Shown here in pieces: positions 2,385 through 7,969 of a DNA stretch of 37,189 nucleotides (positions within the stretch are counted from its first letter, which is position 1; every line of letters starts with the position of its first letter). The notes beneath the pieces were generated by a model that had not been told where the DNA came from, made no database searches, and saw only the letters and a list, made by a program, of their open reading frames with translations. The DNA is from Anaeromyxobacter sp. (GTDB lineage Bacteria; Myxococcota; Myxococcia; Myxococcales; Anaeromyxobacteraceae). A program made the translations under genes and the position numbers. The stretch covers positions 1 to 37,189 of the forward strand of contig JANYBC010000012.1 of NCBI GenBank assembly GCA_025360965.1, in the 5' to 3' direction.

Positions 2385-3359
<975 letters not shown>

Positions 3360-3383: not shown

Positions 3384-4499
3384 TCAGCGGCCGCGCCGGC
3401 GCCGCGCCGCCTCGACGTCGGCCGCGGCCCGGGCCACCTCGAGCAGGATCCCGGCGCCGCCCCTGGCCAGCGCCGCCTCGCCGCGCCGCAGCGGCTCGAC
3501 CGCCGCCGGCGCCCGGAGGCCGAGCCGCAGGGCGGCCTGCCCGGCCGGGAGCGAGGCTGGGACGCCGGCCTCCAGCGCCAGCGCCAGGCGCAGCCGTCGC
3601 CAGGTGGTCGCGGCCAGCTCCTCCTCGGCCCCGGCCCGCCGGTAGAGTTCGGCCAGCGAGGCCAGGTAGTCCCGCGTGGTCCTGCCGGTCGGCAGGGGCG
3701 GGGGCGGCCGGACCGCCCCGTGCCGTGGCCAGAGCGCCCACCCGAGCAGGAGGACCACCAGCCCGAGCTGCAGGCCGAGCCAGGCGCCAGGCCGCGCCAC
3801 GCCTTCGCCCGGCGGGCCGGCGGGGCGCAGGGCGCGCTCGTCGAAGGCGATCGGCCCGAGCGCCGCCAGTCTCACCCAGAGTGACAGCGAGTCTCCCTCG
3901 CCGATGGAGCGGTTGTCGAGCGGCTCGGGGCCGGAGAGCAGCAGCAGCTCGCCGCGCCCGAGCGGAACGGCCACCGCCGCCGGGCGCCCCGCCTCGCCCA
4001 GCACCGGCCGCGCCCCGGGGGCGTCCGAGGCGACCCCACCGGCGCCGACGCGCAGGGAGAGGCCGTCGAAGAGCGGGTGGGGTGCGAGCGGCCCGGCCGT
4101 CCCCTCCACTCCGCCGGGCACCCGCCGGACCGAGAGCCGCCTCGACAGGACCGGCTGGCTCGCTTCGCCGCGAGGTCCGAGCGCCCAGACCACCCGCCCG
4201 CCGGCCCGGGCCCAGTCGAGGAGCGCGGCTACCTGCCCCTCGCCCAGCGGCGCGGCCGGGGCGAGCAGGAGCCAGGTCTCACCCGGTGAAGGATCGGCGG
4301 CGCCGGGAACGAGCCGGCGGAACGGGCGCCCGGTGGCCGCCAGCCAGCGGGCCGCCGCCCCGACCCCCGGACCGGCCGTCGACTCGGTCGAGGGGAAGCT
4401 GGCGAGCGCCGGGTCTCCCCGCGTCGGCGCGGCCACCACCGCCAGCACCAGCAGCCCGGTCCCGAGCAGTCCCACCAGCACCAGGCCGGCGCGGTTCAC
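3384..4499 (-). CDS. DUF4350 domain-containing membrane protein
   Basis: 371-residue protein with one N-terminal transmembrane segment (about residues 5-25) and a second near residues 225-245 (hydrophobic run ending W-A-L-W-P-R). The extracytoplasmic part between them carries the DUF4350-type pattern: S-x-x-S-T near residue 40, a Rossmann-like stretch (W-L-L-L-A-P, then G-G-R-V-V-W) and L-L-L-L-S-G. The C-terminal cytoplasmic part is Ala/Arg-rich and helical. The start is GTG at 4499, overlapping the DUF4129 stop by 4 bases (GTGA), which implies translational coupling. DUF4350 proteins are regularly found beside MoxR, DUF58 and DUF4129 genes; their biochemical role is unknown. I infer a membrane component of a MoxR-serviced complex. 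Confidence 0.75.
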   Translation of the reverse strand: MNRAGLVLVGLLGTGLLVLAVVAAPTRGDPALASFPSTESTAGPGVGAAARWLAATGRPFRRLVPGAADPSPGETWLLLAPAAPLGEGQVAALLDWARAGGRVVWALGPRGEASQPVLSRRLSVRRVPGGVEGTAGPLAPHPLFDGLSLRVGAGGVASDAPGARPVLGEAGRPAAVAVPLGRGELLLLSGPEPLDNRSIGEGDSLSLWVRLAALGPIAFDERALRPAGPPGEGVARPGAWLGLQLGLVVLLLGWALWPRHGAVRPPPPLPTGRTTRDYLASLAELYRRAGAEEELAATTWRRLRLALALEAGVPASLPAGQAALRLGLRAPAAVEPLRRGEAALARGGAGILLEVARAAADVEAARRRRGR

Positions 4500-5116
4500 G
4501 GCGCCACCTCGCCGGGCAGGTCCGGTCCCGAGGCGAGGCCGGCCGCCACAGCCAGCGCCGCGGCCGCCTCCTCGGCGCTGACCGGTCGCTGGCCGAAGAC
4601 GGTCCGCTCGTGGAGCCGGACCAGCCGGGCGAAGCCCTCATCCGCCAGGCGGCTGGCGAGCTCCGGGCCGGTCAGCGCCTCGGTGGCCCTTCCGCCGAGC
4701 CGACGGTGGAGGCCACCCACCGCGGCCAGGAAGGCGAGCCGCACCGCCTCGGCCAGCTCCCCGGCCGCCAGCGCCCGCTCTCCCTCGGCGACCGTCACCC
4801 GCGGCTCGGCGAGGGTCCTGACCAGCACCGGCGGCGCCGCCGGCGCGGGACGCCGCCGCGATCGGCGCAGGCGAGCGGCTCGCCAGAGCAGCAGCGCCGC
4901 CACGGCCACGGCGGCAAGAAAGACCACGCGTCCCAGCCCGGCCACCTGCTCGGCCTCGGAGGTGCCGAGCAGCTCGGTGAGCCGCTCCCAGGCCTGCCTG
5001 AGCCAGCGCAGCAGCCCCTCGCCGCGCCAGCGGGCCGAGTGGAAGTCCGGGGAGGAGAGCACCTGGGCCAGCGCGGCGCGGTCGGCCTCGGTGGCGAGCT
5101 GGCCGGCGGCGCTCAC
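4496..5116 (-). CDS. DUF4129 domain-containing protein
   Basis: 206-residue protein with a single transmembrane segment (about residues 67-83, rich in V/A/L) followed by a basic RRSRRR stop-transfer stretch. The C-terminal domain has the DUF4129 signature: an alpha-helical region with A-L-T-G-P-E-L-A, then E-R-T-V-F-G and an A-E-E-A-A-A-A-L ending. The N-terminal ~65 residues are extracytoplasmic and include a W-L-R-Q-A-W-E-R-L segment common in such proteins. It starts with GTG at 5116, overlapping the previous gene by 4 bases, and overlaps the DUF4350 gene by 4 bases. Function is unknown; neighbours suggest a MoxR-associated envelope function. Confidence 0.75.
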   Translation of the reverse strand: MSAAGQLATEADRAALAQVLSSPDFHSARWRGEGLLRWLRQAWERLTELLGTSEAEQVAGLGRVVFLAAVAVAALLLWRAARLRRSRRRPAPAAPPVLVRTLAEPRVTVAEGERALAAGELAEAVRLAFLAAVGGLHRRLGGRATEALTGPELASRLADEGFARLVRLHERTVFGQRPVSAEEAAAALAVAAGLASGPDLPGEVAP

Positions 5117-6099
5117 GCGGCCTGCTCCAGCCGCCCGGCCCAGGCCGCCAGGTCGAGCCCCTCGGTCCGCGCCCGGCGCTCGAAGTAGAAGACCACCGTC
5201 ACCGCCAGCGAGAAGGGCTGGAGCGCGGCGCTGGCCACCAGCTCGAACAGCGAGAGCCCCAGCTCGACCGGGAGCGGCAAGGCCCCGGGCAGGAAGGGGA
5301 GGCTGCCTTCACCCCCGCCGACGCTGCTGGCCAGGGCCCGCGGCAGGCCGGCCAGGCCGTTGACCGCCAGCATCAGCACGAAGGCGGTGAAGAGCAGCAG
5401 CGAGGCCCGGACGCCGGGGCGCTCCAGCAGCGCCTGGCCGGGGCGCGGTCCCATGAGCCTGATGGAGCGGCGCACCGCCTGGAAGGGGCCGAGCCCCTCC
5501 ACCGCCACCGCCACCGGGGCGAGGATGGTGCGGAGCAGCGCCATCAGGAAGAAGATCAGCCCGCCCAGCACCGCGCCGATGGTCCCGGCCAGGACCGTGG
5601 CGCCCGAGTGGGCCGTGAAGGCGACGAGCAGCCCCGGGAGCGCGCCGAGTCCGAGCGCCGTGGTCAGCAGGAGCTGCTGGACCAGCCCGGCTCCGAGCGC
5701 TCCGAGCAGCCGCCGCGGCCAGGAGGCGACCCAAGCCTGCGGCAGGCCTGCGGCGGTGAGACCCGGCGCGAGCGCCGGCGCCAGGAGCGCCGCCGTGACG
5801 GTGGTGGCGAGGGACTGGAGCAGGAAGAGGACCACCAGCAGGCCGCCCGCCGCCGCCAGCGCCGAGGGCGCCTGCTCGGCAGCCTGCCGGGGGTCGCCGC
5901 TGGCGAGCAGGAGGGCCGGCGCCTGCGCCGAGAGGAAGCGGGCCATGGCCAGCGCGGGCGCCTGCAGGATCAGCATGGCGAGGAAGAGCTGCCGGAAGTG
6001 GAGCCGCGCGGCGGAGATGGCCCGGTCGATCATCCCGCCAATGCCGAGCGGGCCGATGGTCAGGTCGGGGGGCGGTTGGCTGGCCGGGTCGCGGGACAG
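5113..6099 (-). CDS. Polytopic membrane protein of the MoxR operon, probable CTG start
   Basis: About 328 residues with roughly six hydrophobic segments, similar in style to integral membrane proteins with a glycerophosphodiesterase-type membrane domain. No catalytic motif is visible. The first in-frame ATG is at 6033, but the frame stays open upstream to the DUF493 stop codon and encodes D-L-T-I-G-P-L-G-I-G-G-M-I-D-R-A, which matches the conserved N-terminal motif of this protein type (P-L-x-x-x-E-I-L-D-R-A). No ATG, GTG or TTG is in frame there. A strong AGGAGG at 6113-6108 lies 8 bases before a CTG at 6099, so I take CTG as the start. The ribosome-binding site overlaps the DUF493 stop, which implies coupling. 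Function unknown. Confidence 0.65.
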   Translation of the reverse strand: MSRDPASQPPPDLTIGPLGIGGMIDRAISAARLHFRQLFLAMLILQAPALAMARFLSAQAPALLLASGDPRQAAEQAPSALAAAGGLLVVLFLLQSLATTVTAALLAPALAPGLTAAGLPQAWVASWPRRLLGALGAGLVQQLLLTTALGLGALPGLLVAFTAHSGATVLAGTIGAVLGGLIFFLMALLRTILAPVAVAVEGLGPFQAVRRSIRLMGPRPGQALLERPGVRASLLLFTAFVLMLAVNGLAGLPRALASSVGGGEGSLPFLPGALPLPVELGLSLFELVASAALQPFSLAVTVVFYFERRARTEGLDLAAWAGRLEQAA

Positions 6100-6107
6100 G
6101 GTCAGCT

Positions 6108-6113
6108 CCTCCT
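6108..6113 (-). promoter_or_regulatory. Ribosome-binding site that decides a CTG start
   Basis: AGGAGG on the minus strand, made partly from the TAG stop of the DUF493 gene (6114-6112). It sits 8 bases from CTG at 6099 and about 75 bases from the first ATG at 6033. Confidence 0.55.
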
Positions 6114-6387
6114 ACAGTGCGTGGACCACGCGCGGGTCGTCACGCAGGGCGTCGTAGAGGGAGAGCCGCTGCGGCTCGCTGGTCAAGGTCACCACCACGG
6201 TCACCGAGTGGTACTTGCCGCCGGCGCTGGCGCGCACCGTGACCTGCCCGGCCGGCGCCGCGCCGACCACCCGGGCCACCAGGCCGCGGGCGTGCTCGGC
6301 GAAGTCGTCGCCGGCGAGCCCGATGATGGTGATCGGATACTCGACCGGATACTGGAAGCCGGCTGGCCGGTCACCGGGAAGTTCCAT
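6112..6387 (-). CDS. DUF493 (YbeD-like) family protein
   Basis: 91-residue protein of the DUF493/YbeD family, small ACT-like ferredoxin-fold proteins of unclear regulatory function. The family pattern is visible: F-Q-Y-P-V-E-Y-P-I-T-I-I-G near the start, then S-A-G-G-K-Y-H-S-V-T-V in the middle (residues 54-64), and L-Y-D-A-L-R-D-D-P-R-V at the end. The length is typical. I start at the ATG at 6387; a longer frame running upstream encodes no recognisable protein. It heads the minus-strand MoxR operon: its stop codon overlaps the ribosome-binding site of the next gene. Confidence 0.85.
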   Translation of the reverse strand: MELPGDRPAGFQYPVEYPITIIGLAGDDFAEHARGLVARVVGAAPAGQVTVRASAGGKYHSVTVVVTLTSEPQRLSLYDALRDDPRVVHAL

Positions 6388-6706: not shown

Positions 6707-7969
6707 ATGATGACGACGAAGAAGCTGATGGTGGTGGACGTCACGGGCCAGGTGGCCTGGTCCTCCTCCGACCTGACCATCGCCGCCGTCGACGCCAGCG
6801 GCCTGGTCAGCACCGCCGCCGCCGGCAGCGCGCTCCTGGTGGCCTCCCTGGAAGGGAAGACGGCTTCCGCCACCCTGCAGGTCAGTGACGCCATCCTGCT
6901 CTCGCTGGAGCTGACGCCGAGCCAGCTCCAGGTCCCGCTCGGGGTGGCGCTGTCCGCCCTGGTCAAGGGCACCTTCTCCGATGGCTCGGTGGTCGACCTG
7001 ACCTCGCAGGTCTCCTGGGGCGCGCCCGGCAGCGGCCTGGTGGTCGTGACGCCCGGCCAGTTCCGCGCCTCGGCCAAGGGGCTGGCCCGGCTCCAGGCTT
7101 CCTTCCAGGAGCGGGAGGCGACCGCCGACGTCCTGGTCACCGACGCGGTGGCCACGGCGCTGCAGCTCGGCAGCGCGCGCAGCCTGGCTGCACTCCCCAA
7201 GGGCACGCTCGCCAGGATCGTCGCCACCGCCAGCTTCACAGACGGCACCGCGCTCGACGTCACCGCCGACGTCACCTGGAGCAGCGACGCGCTCGCCATC
7301 GCCGCCGTCGAGGGCGTCATGGTGCGTGCCGTCGGCGTCGGGGCCACCCGGCTGCTCGGCTCCTACCAGGGGAGGTCCAGCTCGCTCGACGTGACCGTGA
7401 CCGAGGCCGAGGTGGTGGCCCTCTCGGTGCGGCCTCCGCTGGCGACCGCCCCGGCCGGTGACTTCGTCGCGCTCAGCGCCACTGCCACCTACTCCGACGG
7501 CAGCTCCGGCGACGTCACCGATCAGGTGACCTGGTCCTCCCTCGATCCGGTGGCGGTGCAGCTCTCCAACCGGCTGAACGAGCACGGCCACGCCTTCGGG
7601 CTGATCCGCGGCGCGCAGACTGTGGTGACCGCCCAGCTCCCCTCCGCCGGCCTCTCCGCCACCACGCTGGTCCAGGTCGGCGCCCCCGCGGTCCGGGGCT
7701 ATCGAATCGACCAGGCGCTCTCCGTGGCGCGCCGCACGGTCACCGCCGGGGCCGACCTCCAGCTCAGCGCCACCGCCACCTACACCGACGGCACCACCGC
7801 CAGCGCCACCGCGCAGCTCGTCTGGGTGAGCTTCTCGCCCAGCGTGGCCGTCGCCGACCCATACTCCCCCGGCCTGATCCACACCTTGGCGCCCGGCTCG
7901 GCCACCATCGTGGTGACGCTCCCCGACCACCCGCTCATCTGGATGTCGGCGGTGGTCTTCGTCCGCTGA
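6707..7969 (+). CDS. Tandem bacterial Ig-like (Big_2-type) repeat protein, N-terminally truncated
   Basis: 420 residues made of about four and a half degenerate repeats of ~80-95 residues. Each has the Big_2-type core: a turn like Y-S-D-G-S, then D-V-T-x-Q-V-T-W-S-S, then A-x-G-x-A, ending T-V-T-E-A or similar. Repeat boundaries are near residues 62, 147, 234 and 326. The protein begins inside a repeat ([11 protein letters not shown] at residues 9-19), so the first repeat lacks its N-terminal half, and there is no signal peptide. Such proteins are normally surface or secreted. The start has two adjacent ATGs (6707, 6710) preceded by AGAGGGAG about 8 bases away. It may be a remnant of a longer secreted protein or a cytoplasmic leftover. 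A strong terminator follows. Confidence 0.75.

Follow-up and report, generated by a model that had tools for sequence, protein, structure and literature searches.

The stretch of DNA analysed here (hereafter the window) comprises 37,189 nt from an Anaeromyxobacter sp. and is one contig of a 3.83 Mb assembly divided into 259 contigs. On its minus strand, five genes encode, in 5' to 3' order, a DUF493 protein, a predicted membrane protein, a DUF4129-like protein, a DUF4350 protein and a MoxR-type AAA ATPase (Table 1, for which overlaps and gaps were computed from the first start in each frame). Syntenic counterparts of all five are present in a sister species (genome G003, locus L011). By full-length homology and by its N-terminal P-L-x-x-G-(E/G)-x-x-D motif, the membrane protein belongs to a group of myxobacterial LRPLxxGE(I/L/M)IDR membrane proteins, in which the P, G and D are invariant over 91 aligned sequences. 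It reaches no curated Pfam cut-off (DUF6159, E 0.0043), and GPDPase_memb and DUF7847 give weak matches in other members of the group. In two outgroups of the same taxonomic family (loci L004 and L006), a frame matching the thiS-like gene of the window (8102 onwards) adjoins the membrane-protein gene in divergent orientation; the two are separated in the window by DUF493 and by a gene (6707-7969) encoding Big_2 Ig-like domains. This gene order suggests that the membrane-protein gene once had an upstream region of its own and was later brought into the operon, a move that would fit the remodelled start region described below.

Table 1. Features of the membrane-protein gene and of its operon in the window.
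Feature	Coordinates	Strand	Basis
CTG at which the membrane-protein gene most likely starts	6097..6099	-	in frame, 8 nt after AGGAGG
Shine-Dalgarno AGGAGG, AG taken from the DUF493 TAG	6108..6113	-	sequence
Membrane-protein gene with the proposed start CTG 6099 (328 aa)	5113..6099	-	open frame; family conserved in the order
Codons of the N-terminal motif LTIGPLGIGG, lost if the start is ATG 6033	6034..6063	-	alignment
First ATG in frame, judged internal	6031..6033	-	alignment and upstream starts of homologues
Competing in-frame CTG	6103..6105	-	2 nt from AGGAGG; spacing judged too short
Competing in-frame CTG	6061..6063	-	aligned with the GTG start of the sister; no Shine-Dalgarno
DUF493 gene, upstream neighbour	6112..6387	-	Pfam PF04359, E 7.2e-21; stop TAG 6114-6112
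DUF4129-like gene	4496..5116	-	PF13559, E 1.2e-05; 4-nt overlap with the membrane-protein gene
DUF4350 gene	3384..4499	-	PF14258, E 6e-14; 4-nt overlap with the DUF4129-like gene
MoxR-type AAA ATPase gene	2385..3359	-	AAA_3, E 1.2e-63; begins 24 nt after DUF4350

The DUF493 and membrane-protein genes lie in the same frame with TAG alone between them, and TAGGAGGAGCTGACCCTGTCCCGC is the minus-strand sequence that follows the DUF493 codons. As the preliminary description had stated, the membrane-protein frame is open from this TAG down to ATG 6033 with no ATG, GTG or TTG, which leaves the conserved N-terminus without any canonical start after the preceding in-frame stop. In the other two frames, the stretch 6113-6030 holds a single canonical triplet, a TTG at 6041, which AGGAGG cannot serve because the distance is too great. 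The same description placed AGGAGG, built partly from the DUF493 stop codon, 8 nt before CTG 6099, and both its position (6113-6108) and this working distance were recovered; a second GGAG register lies 6 nt from the same codon. Just one more in-frame codon, ACC 6102, falls 4-10 nt from AGGAGG. Two more in-frame CTGs, absent from the preliminary description, are CTG 6105, which AGGAGG precedes by 2 nt, and CTG 6063, where no Shine-Dalgarno is seen, while ATG 6033-6031 follows CTG 6099 in frame by 22 codons. With 12 nt from TAG to CTG 6099 and a Shine-Dalgarno sequence that spans the stop, the junction has the layout of a stop-codon-coupled pair, and the coupled initiation suggested beforehand would fit this arrangement.

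AGGAGG occurs 52 times in the window over both strands, against 33 expected from shuffles, and the chance of finding it on the right strand within ~30 nt is roughly 2%. The codon-usage score of 6099-6034 is best in the proposed frame (1.8, compared with -14.1 and -8.6 in the other two), whereas the 12 codons 6099-6064 alone score just -0.8 (other frames -3.6 and -4.4). RNA folding at the start revealed nothing unusual (z-score +0.4). The same junction had no exact match in viral contigs, and one scan of genome contigs returned the sister alone.

When 145 genomes of the order were searched with an alignment, 103 contained matches at E <= 0.001, of which some were weak and local. The alignment set comprises the window protein and 90 homologues (30 loci and 60 further sequences, duplicates removed), which include many close relatives and do not amount to 90 independent observations. 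Left out were a partial copy (G057:C636), 14 weak local matches (E >= 1.6e-14) and three homologues with one in-frame TGA each (G137:C91, G057:C25 and G062:C166, from two genera), which may reflect an error, a pseudogene or something else. With the residue that aligns to M6033 taken as reference, all 91 sequences have P at -6, G at -2 and D at +2, and 89 have E at -1; the reference residue itself is L, I or M in 88/91 and thus an ordinary hydrophobic position. The expectation that initiation at ATG 6033 would remove a conserved motif is borne out by the invariant P and G. With the canonical codon closest to the motif as the predicted start of each homologue, ATG, GTG or TTG lies upstream of the P in 90/90 homologues and in the window there is none. 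The comparison with orthologues for which the preliminary description had called, in search of starts at the position of ATG 6033, thus finds a usual start codon upstream of the motif throughout, which speaks for the reading put forward there. These nearest codons are GTG in 69, ATG in 15 and TTG in 6 homologues, and in 89 of the 90 their distance to the M position is at most 18 codons; judged by codon frequencies (an estimate from a 5.6% share), about half of all 12-codon stretches would be expected to hold an ATG, GTG or TTG. From the alignment, ATG 6033 is almost certainly an internal codon, and we conclude with high confidence that translation starts upstream of it. A Shine-Dalgarno match of at least 5 nt, 4-10 nt before the nearest canonical start, was found in one homologue only (1/90; a TTG with AGGAG), so the AGGAGG of the window is not a family default. 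The other 89 homologues lack such a sequence, and some of them (e.g. L007, L009 and L010) display TATG-like sequence just upstream; leaderless transcripts could be used in some homologues, these three among the examples.

Alignment of the window DNA with the sister revealed one clean 52-nt gap in the latter, corresponding to window 6114-6063, such that the CTG of the DUF493 end is joined directly to TGACC. In the sister, ...GCG CTG TGA ends DUF493 and GTG ACC ATC begins the membrane protein, the two genes overlapping by GTGA in different frames; this single 52-nt difference gives the sister both its DUF493 TGA stop and its overlapping GTG start. The last residues of DUF493 are VVHAL in the window and in the sister. 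Over the ten codons 6063-6034, the window differs from the sister in the first base (CTG/GTG) and in two third positions, both synonymous, and the remainder of the gene is intact, with 74% protein identity. Conservation of the 22 additional residues, suggested as a check in the preliminary description, holds in the sister for the last 10 (LTIGPLGIGG) and fails for the first 12, absent there. Conservation of a near-cognate start codon in orthologues was likewise not observed, as the sister uses GTG within a remodelled junction, and a CTG start common to the genus was not found for this gene, G001 and G002 (each 79% complete) giving no copy. The outgroups L004 and L006 share 48% and 44% protein identity, respectively, with the window protein and have their ATG at -17 and -16. 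CGACCTG, which surrounds CTG 6063, is identical in the window and in both outgroups, where it is internal; CTG 6063 therefore looks ancestrally internal, which favours CTG 6099. With moderate confidence, given two outgroups and one dipeptide, Asp-Leu would be ancestral and internal, the sister would have lost the upstream part by deletion, and the window start would lie upstream of 6063.

Translation of the membrane protein probably begins at CTG 6099, as a genuine CTG. An assembly artefact would be one way around it: the true base at 6099 could be A, G or T, with CTG representing a consensus error or minority variant of an ordinary start at the same codon. The single copy in one assembly of 259 contigs, the failure to find a second genome of the species and the GTG start of the sister lend this some substance, but no long homopolymer is present at 6099 and the CTG present at infC throughout the genus (see below) makes a CTG start plausible, although it says nothing directly about this base; we regard an error as unlikely. 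It is quite improbable that initiation occurs instead at CTG 6063, the 12 upstream codons being an untranslated leader. That codon aligns exactly with the GTG start of the sister, in which everything between the DUF493 end and this position is missing, but it has no Shine-Dalgarno, does not overlap the DUF493 stop as the start of the sister does, belongs to a GAC CTG common to two outgroups and internal there, and would leave the strong AGGAGG without a gene. CTG 6105, two codons before 6099, is in frame and nearest to the stop codon; it is nonetheless separated from AGGAGG by 2 nt, compared with 5-8 nt at six candidate starts in the window and sister (matches of at least 5 nt within 10 nt, five further matches at 12-17 nt having been set aside as implausible sites), and a start at this codon is very improbable.

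Very little weight is given to ATG 6033 as the start of a shortened protein, whether functional or decaying. Its claim is to be the first canonical start in the frame, against which stand the loss of residues present in 91/91 sequences, the lack of a Shine-Dalgarno, and the synonymous nature of the 6060-6034 differences from the sister in an otherwise intact gene. Readthrough of the in-frame TAG would yield a DUF493-membrane protein fusion, as both genes share one frame with just TAG between them; such a product is scarcely credible when the sister has the two genes in different frames with overlapping TGA/GTG, DUF493 ends at VVHAL in both species and AGGAGG would be needless. As for the natural CTG start put forward in the preliminary description, the missing canonical start and the Shine-Dalgarno spacing uphold it, while the GTG of the sister and the two other CTGs, which compete although disfavoured, weigh on the other side.

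The genomes of the genus lend independent support to a CTG start through infC, the gene for IF3, which is present in the window genome. Among the matches listed, 52 infC loci were read, some genomes giving two copies. Outside the genus, ATC or ATT stands behind a Shine-Dalgarno in 48/48 loci from other genera of the order; within the genus, CTG takes this place in 4/4 genomes examined (L144 of the window genome, G000; L197 of G001; L171 of G002; L172 of G003), located 9 codons before the conserved core and preceded by GGAG and 6 nt. The contexts are AAGGAG CACCGT CTG AAT in the window genome, GAGGAG CACGGT CTG AAT in G001 and G002, and AAGGAG CAAGGT CTG AAT in G003. The membrane-protein gene reads GAGGAG CTGACC CTG, presenting the hexamer of G001 and G002 infC and the spacing of all four. 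In G001 and G003, the open frame contains no canonical codon ahead of the core; that of G002 contains a single TTG, which precedes the CTG by 13 codons and has no Shine-Dalgarno. The window genome has two GTGs at distances of 45 and 39 codons upstream of the CTG, of which the closer is itself preceded by GGAGG at 11 nt, and these count somewhat against the CTG start. Between them and the CTG is a promoter-like TTGACT-16 nt-TATCCT, which matches 9/12 consensus bases and had no equal in 50 shuffles; as it lies downstream of both GTGs, a transcript from such a promoter would exclude them.

Seven of the 48 loci (L176-L179, L181, L183 and L184), all in one genus of the same taxonomic family, read ATG GCG/GCA ATC with GGAGG 3 nt before the ATG and 9 nt before the ATC, either of which may be the start. 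One of them, the outgroup locus L184, also carries a CTG that follows GAGG further upstream than its ATC and ATG and is judged incidental. Twelve further infC loci were considered (11 outside the order and 1 inside), of which 8 passed a motif filter, the one inside the order having ATT. None of these 8 has a CTG behind a Shine-Dalgarno, a weak result in that 3/8 show no candidate start. No report of a CTG-started infC was recognised in the literature searched, the coverage of which was partial. CTG is probably a working start codon in the genus, and its genus-wide occurrence at infC makes a CTG start at the membrane-protein gene plausible. It also suggests that CUG is able to take over IF3-sensitive initiation.

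CTG is nevertheless not a general start in the window genome. In a small sample of 20 genome stretches plus the window (311,647 bases; 170 coding frames picked by codon usage, with predicted starts), a Shine-Dalgarno was found 4-9 nt upstream of ATG in 21/81 cases, of GTG in 11/67 and of CTG in 3/84, the last comparable to the 162/4906 of all codons other than ATG, GTG and TTG. Exact AGGAGG at this distance precedes 5/170 canonical starts and 30/4906 other codons; the one CTG so preceded (1/84) is that of the membrane-protein gene. CTG accounts for 5.4% of codons in the sampled frames, and its presence alone therefore means little, the weight resting on the missing canonical start and on the conserved encoded motif.

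G002 and G003 carry GGATCACCTCCTT, the expected 16S rRNA 3' end with a normal anti-Shine-Dalgarno, which had no match in the window genome (rated 100% complete) or in G001. G001 and G003 possess identical initiator tRNA genes whose anticodon stem has the usual GGG/CCC, and no copy was recovered from the window genome or from G002. Both absences from the window genome probably represent assembly gaps, as perhaps does that of the initiator tRNA from G002. A changed initiator tRNA was considered as the cause of CTG initiation and rejected, since the gene is ordinary in G001 and G003, both of which have a CTG infC; the infC CTG thus goes with an ordinary initiator tRNA wherever the latter was seen.

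In the available parts of the published accounts, CUG is an infrequent start codon. It is annotated in 20 genes, or 0.024%, across 69 model genomes (PMC9845219), and start-codon switches to CUG are rare (2/61,358 from AUG, 1/5,080 from GUG and 1/2,468 from UUG; PMC5622118). Such switches resemble the present case in that one lineage has a CUG start and its relatives a canonical one; they differ in being counted from genome triplets, whereas the ancestral start of the window gene is not reconstructed because the indel remodelled the region. As reported for mycobacteria, CTG is not enriched as a leadered start (0.03%), in contrast to ATT (9.8%; PMC4633059). Caulobacter dnaA has a CUG preceded by a Shine-Dalgarno, as here, which according to the portion of the study at hand gives a toeprint and is unused in vivo (PMC8443254); a functional AUG lies downstream in that gene, whereas the downstream ATG of the window cuts off invariant residues.

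Closer parallels are provided by genes with near-cognate starts. According to the sections seen, infC of studied bacteria starts with AUU or AUC and is repressed by IF3 (PMC5472188; PMC1805508). The membrane-protein gene shares with it a near-cognate start, a strong Shine-Dalgarno and a position fixed by a conserved N-terminal core, and within the genus it shares CTG with infC at the same spacing. It differs in that its CTG is not common to the sister and, as the gene does not encode a translation factor, autoregulation is not expected. Streptomyces sigR, as described in the part of PMC5472188 available, is likewise an operon gene with a AGGAGGTG ribosome-binding site and a start outside ATG, GTG and TTG; IF3 represses this GTC start and affects protein ratios. 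The GTC was tested experimentally and occurs in 32/34 species, whereas the window CTG is supported by sequence evidence in one species. A CTG start at 6099 would be a further example of a known phenomenon, and the infC CTG raises its interest.

In the mechanism that we propose for CTG 6099, ribosomes finishing DUF493 at TAG would sit on AGGAGG with the anti-Shine-Dalgarno able to pair, and could re-initiate 12 nt past the stop, the initiator tRNA being accepted on CUG despite the first-position mismatch. The predicted N-terminal peptide is MSRDPASQPPPDLTIGPLGIGG. IF3 would limit this initiation as it does at near-cognate starts in studied bacteria. A low yield would be expected since, in the available text of the two sources, CUG initiation complexes are less stable than those on AUG, GUG or UUG (PMC11497404) and CUG starts are rare (PMC9845219); a modest output may be appropriate for a membrane protein produced beside the other operon products. 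A wider scenario is possible but doubtful: the near-cognate start preferred in the genus would have shifted from ATC to CTG, the latter replacing ATC at infC in all four genomes with the Shine-Dalgarno layout kept, and in the window species the membrane-protein gene would have joined this CTG class, IF3 holding its output down relative to DUF493 and allowing it to rise when IF3 is scarce.

Gene callers restricted to ATG, GTG and TTG would put the start at ATG 6033 and lose the invariant motif. Starts at CTG are uncommon and rarely backed by evidence, and the locus offers a natural experiment, with CTG in the window species, GTG in the sister and an indel between them. Elsewhere in the window, collagen-like G-P-T/G-P-A triplet repeats (Pfam Collagen, E 1.7e-07) occur in a protein predicted from positions 25-639 of the plus strand.
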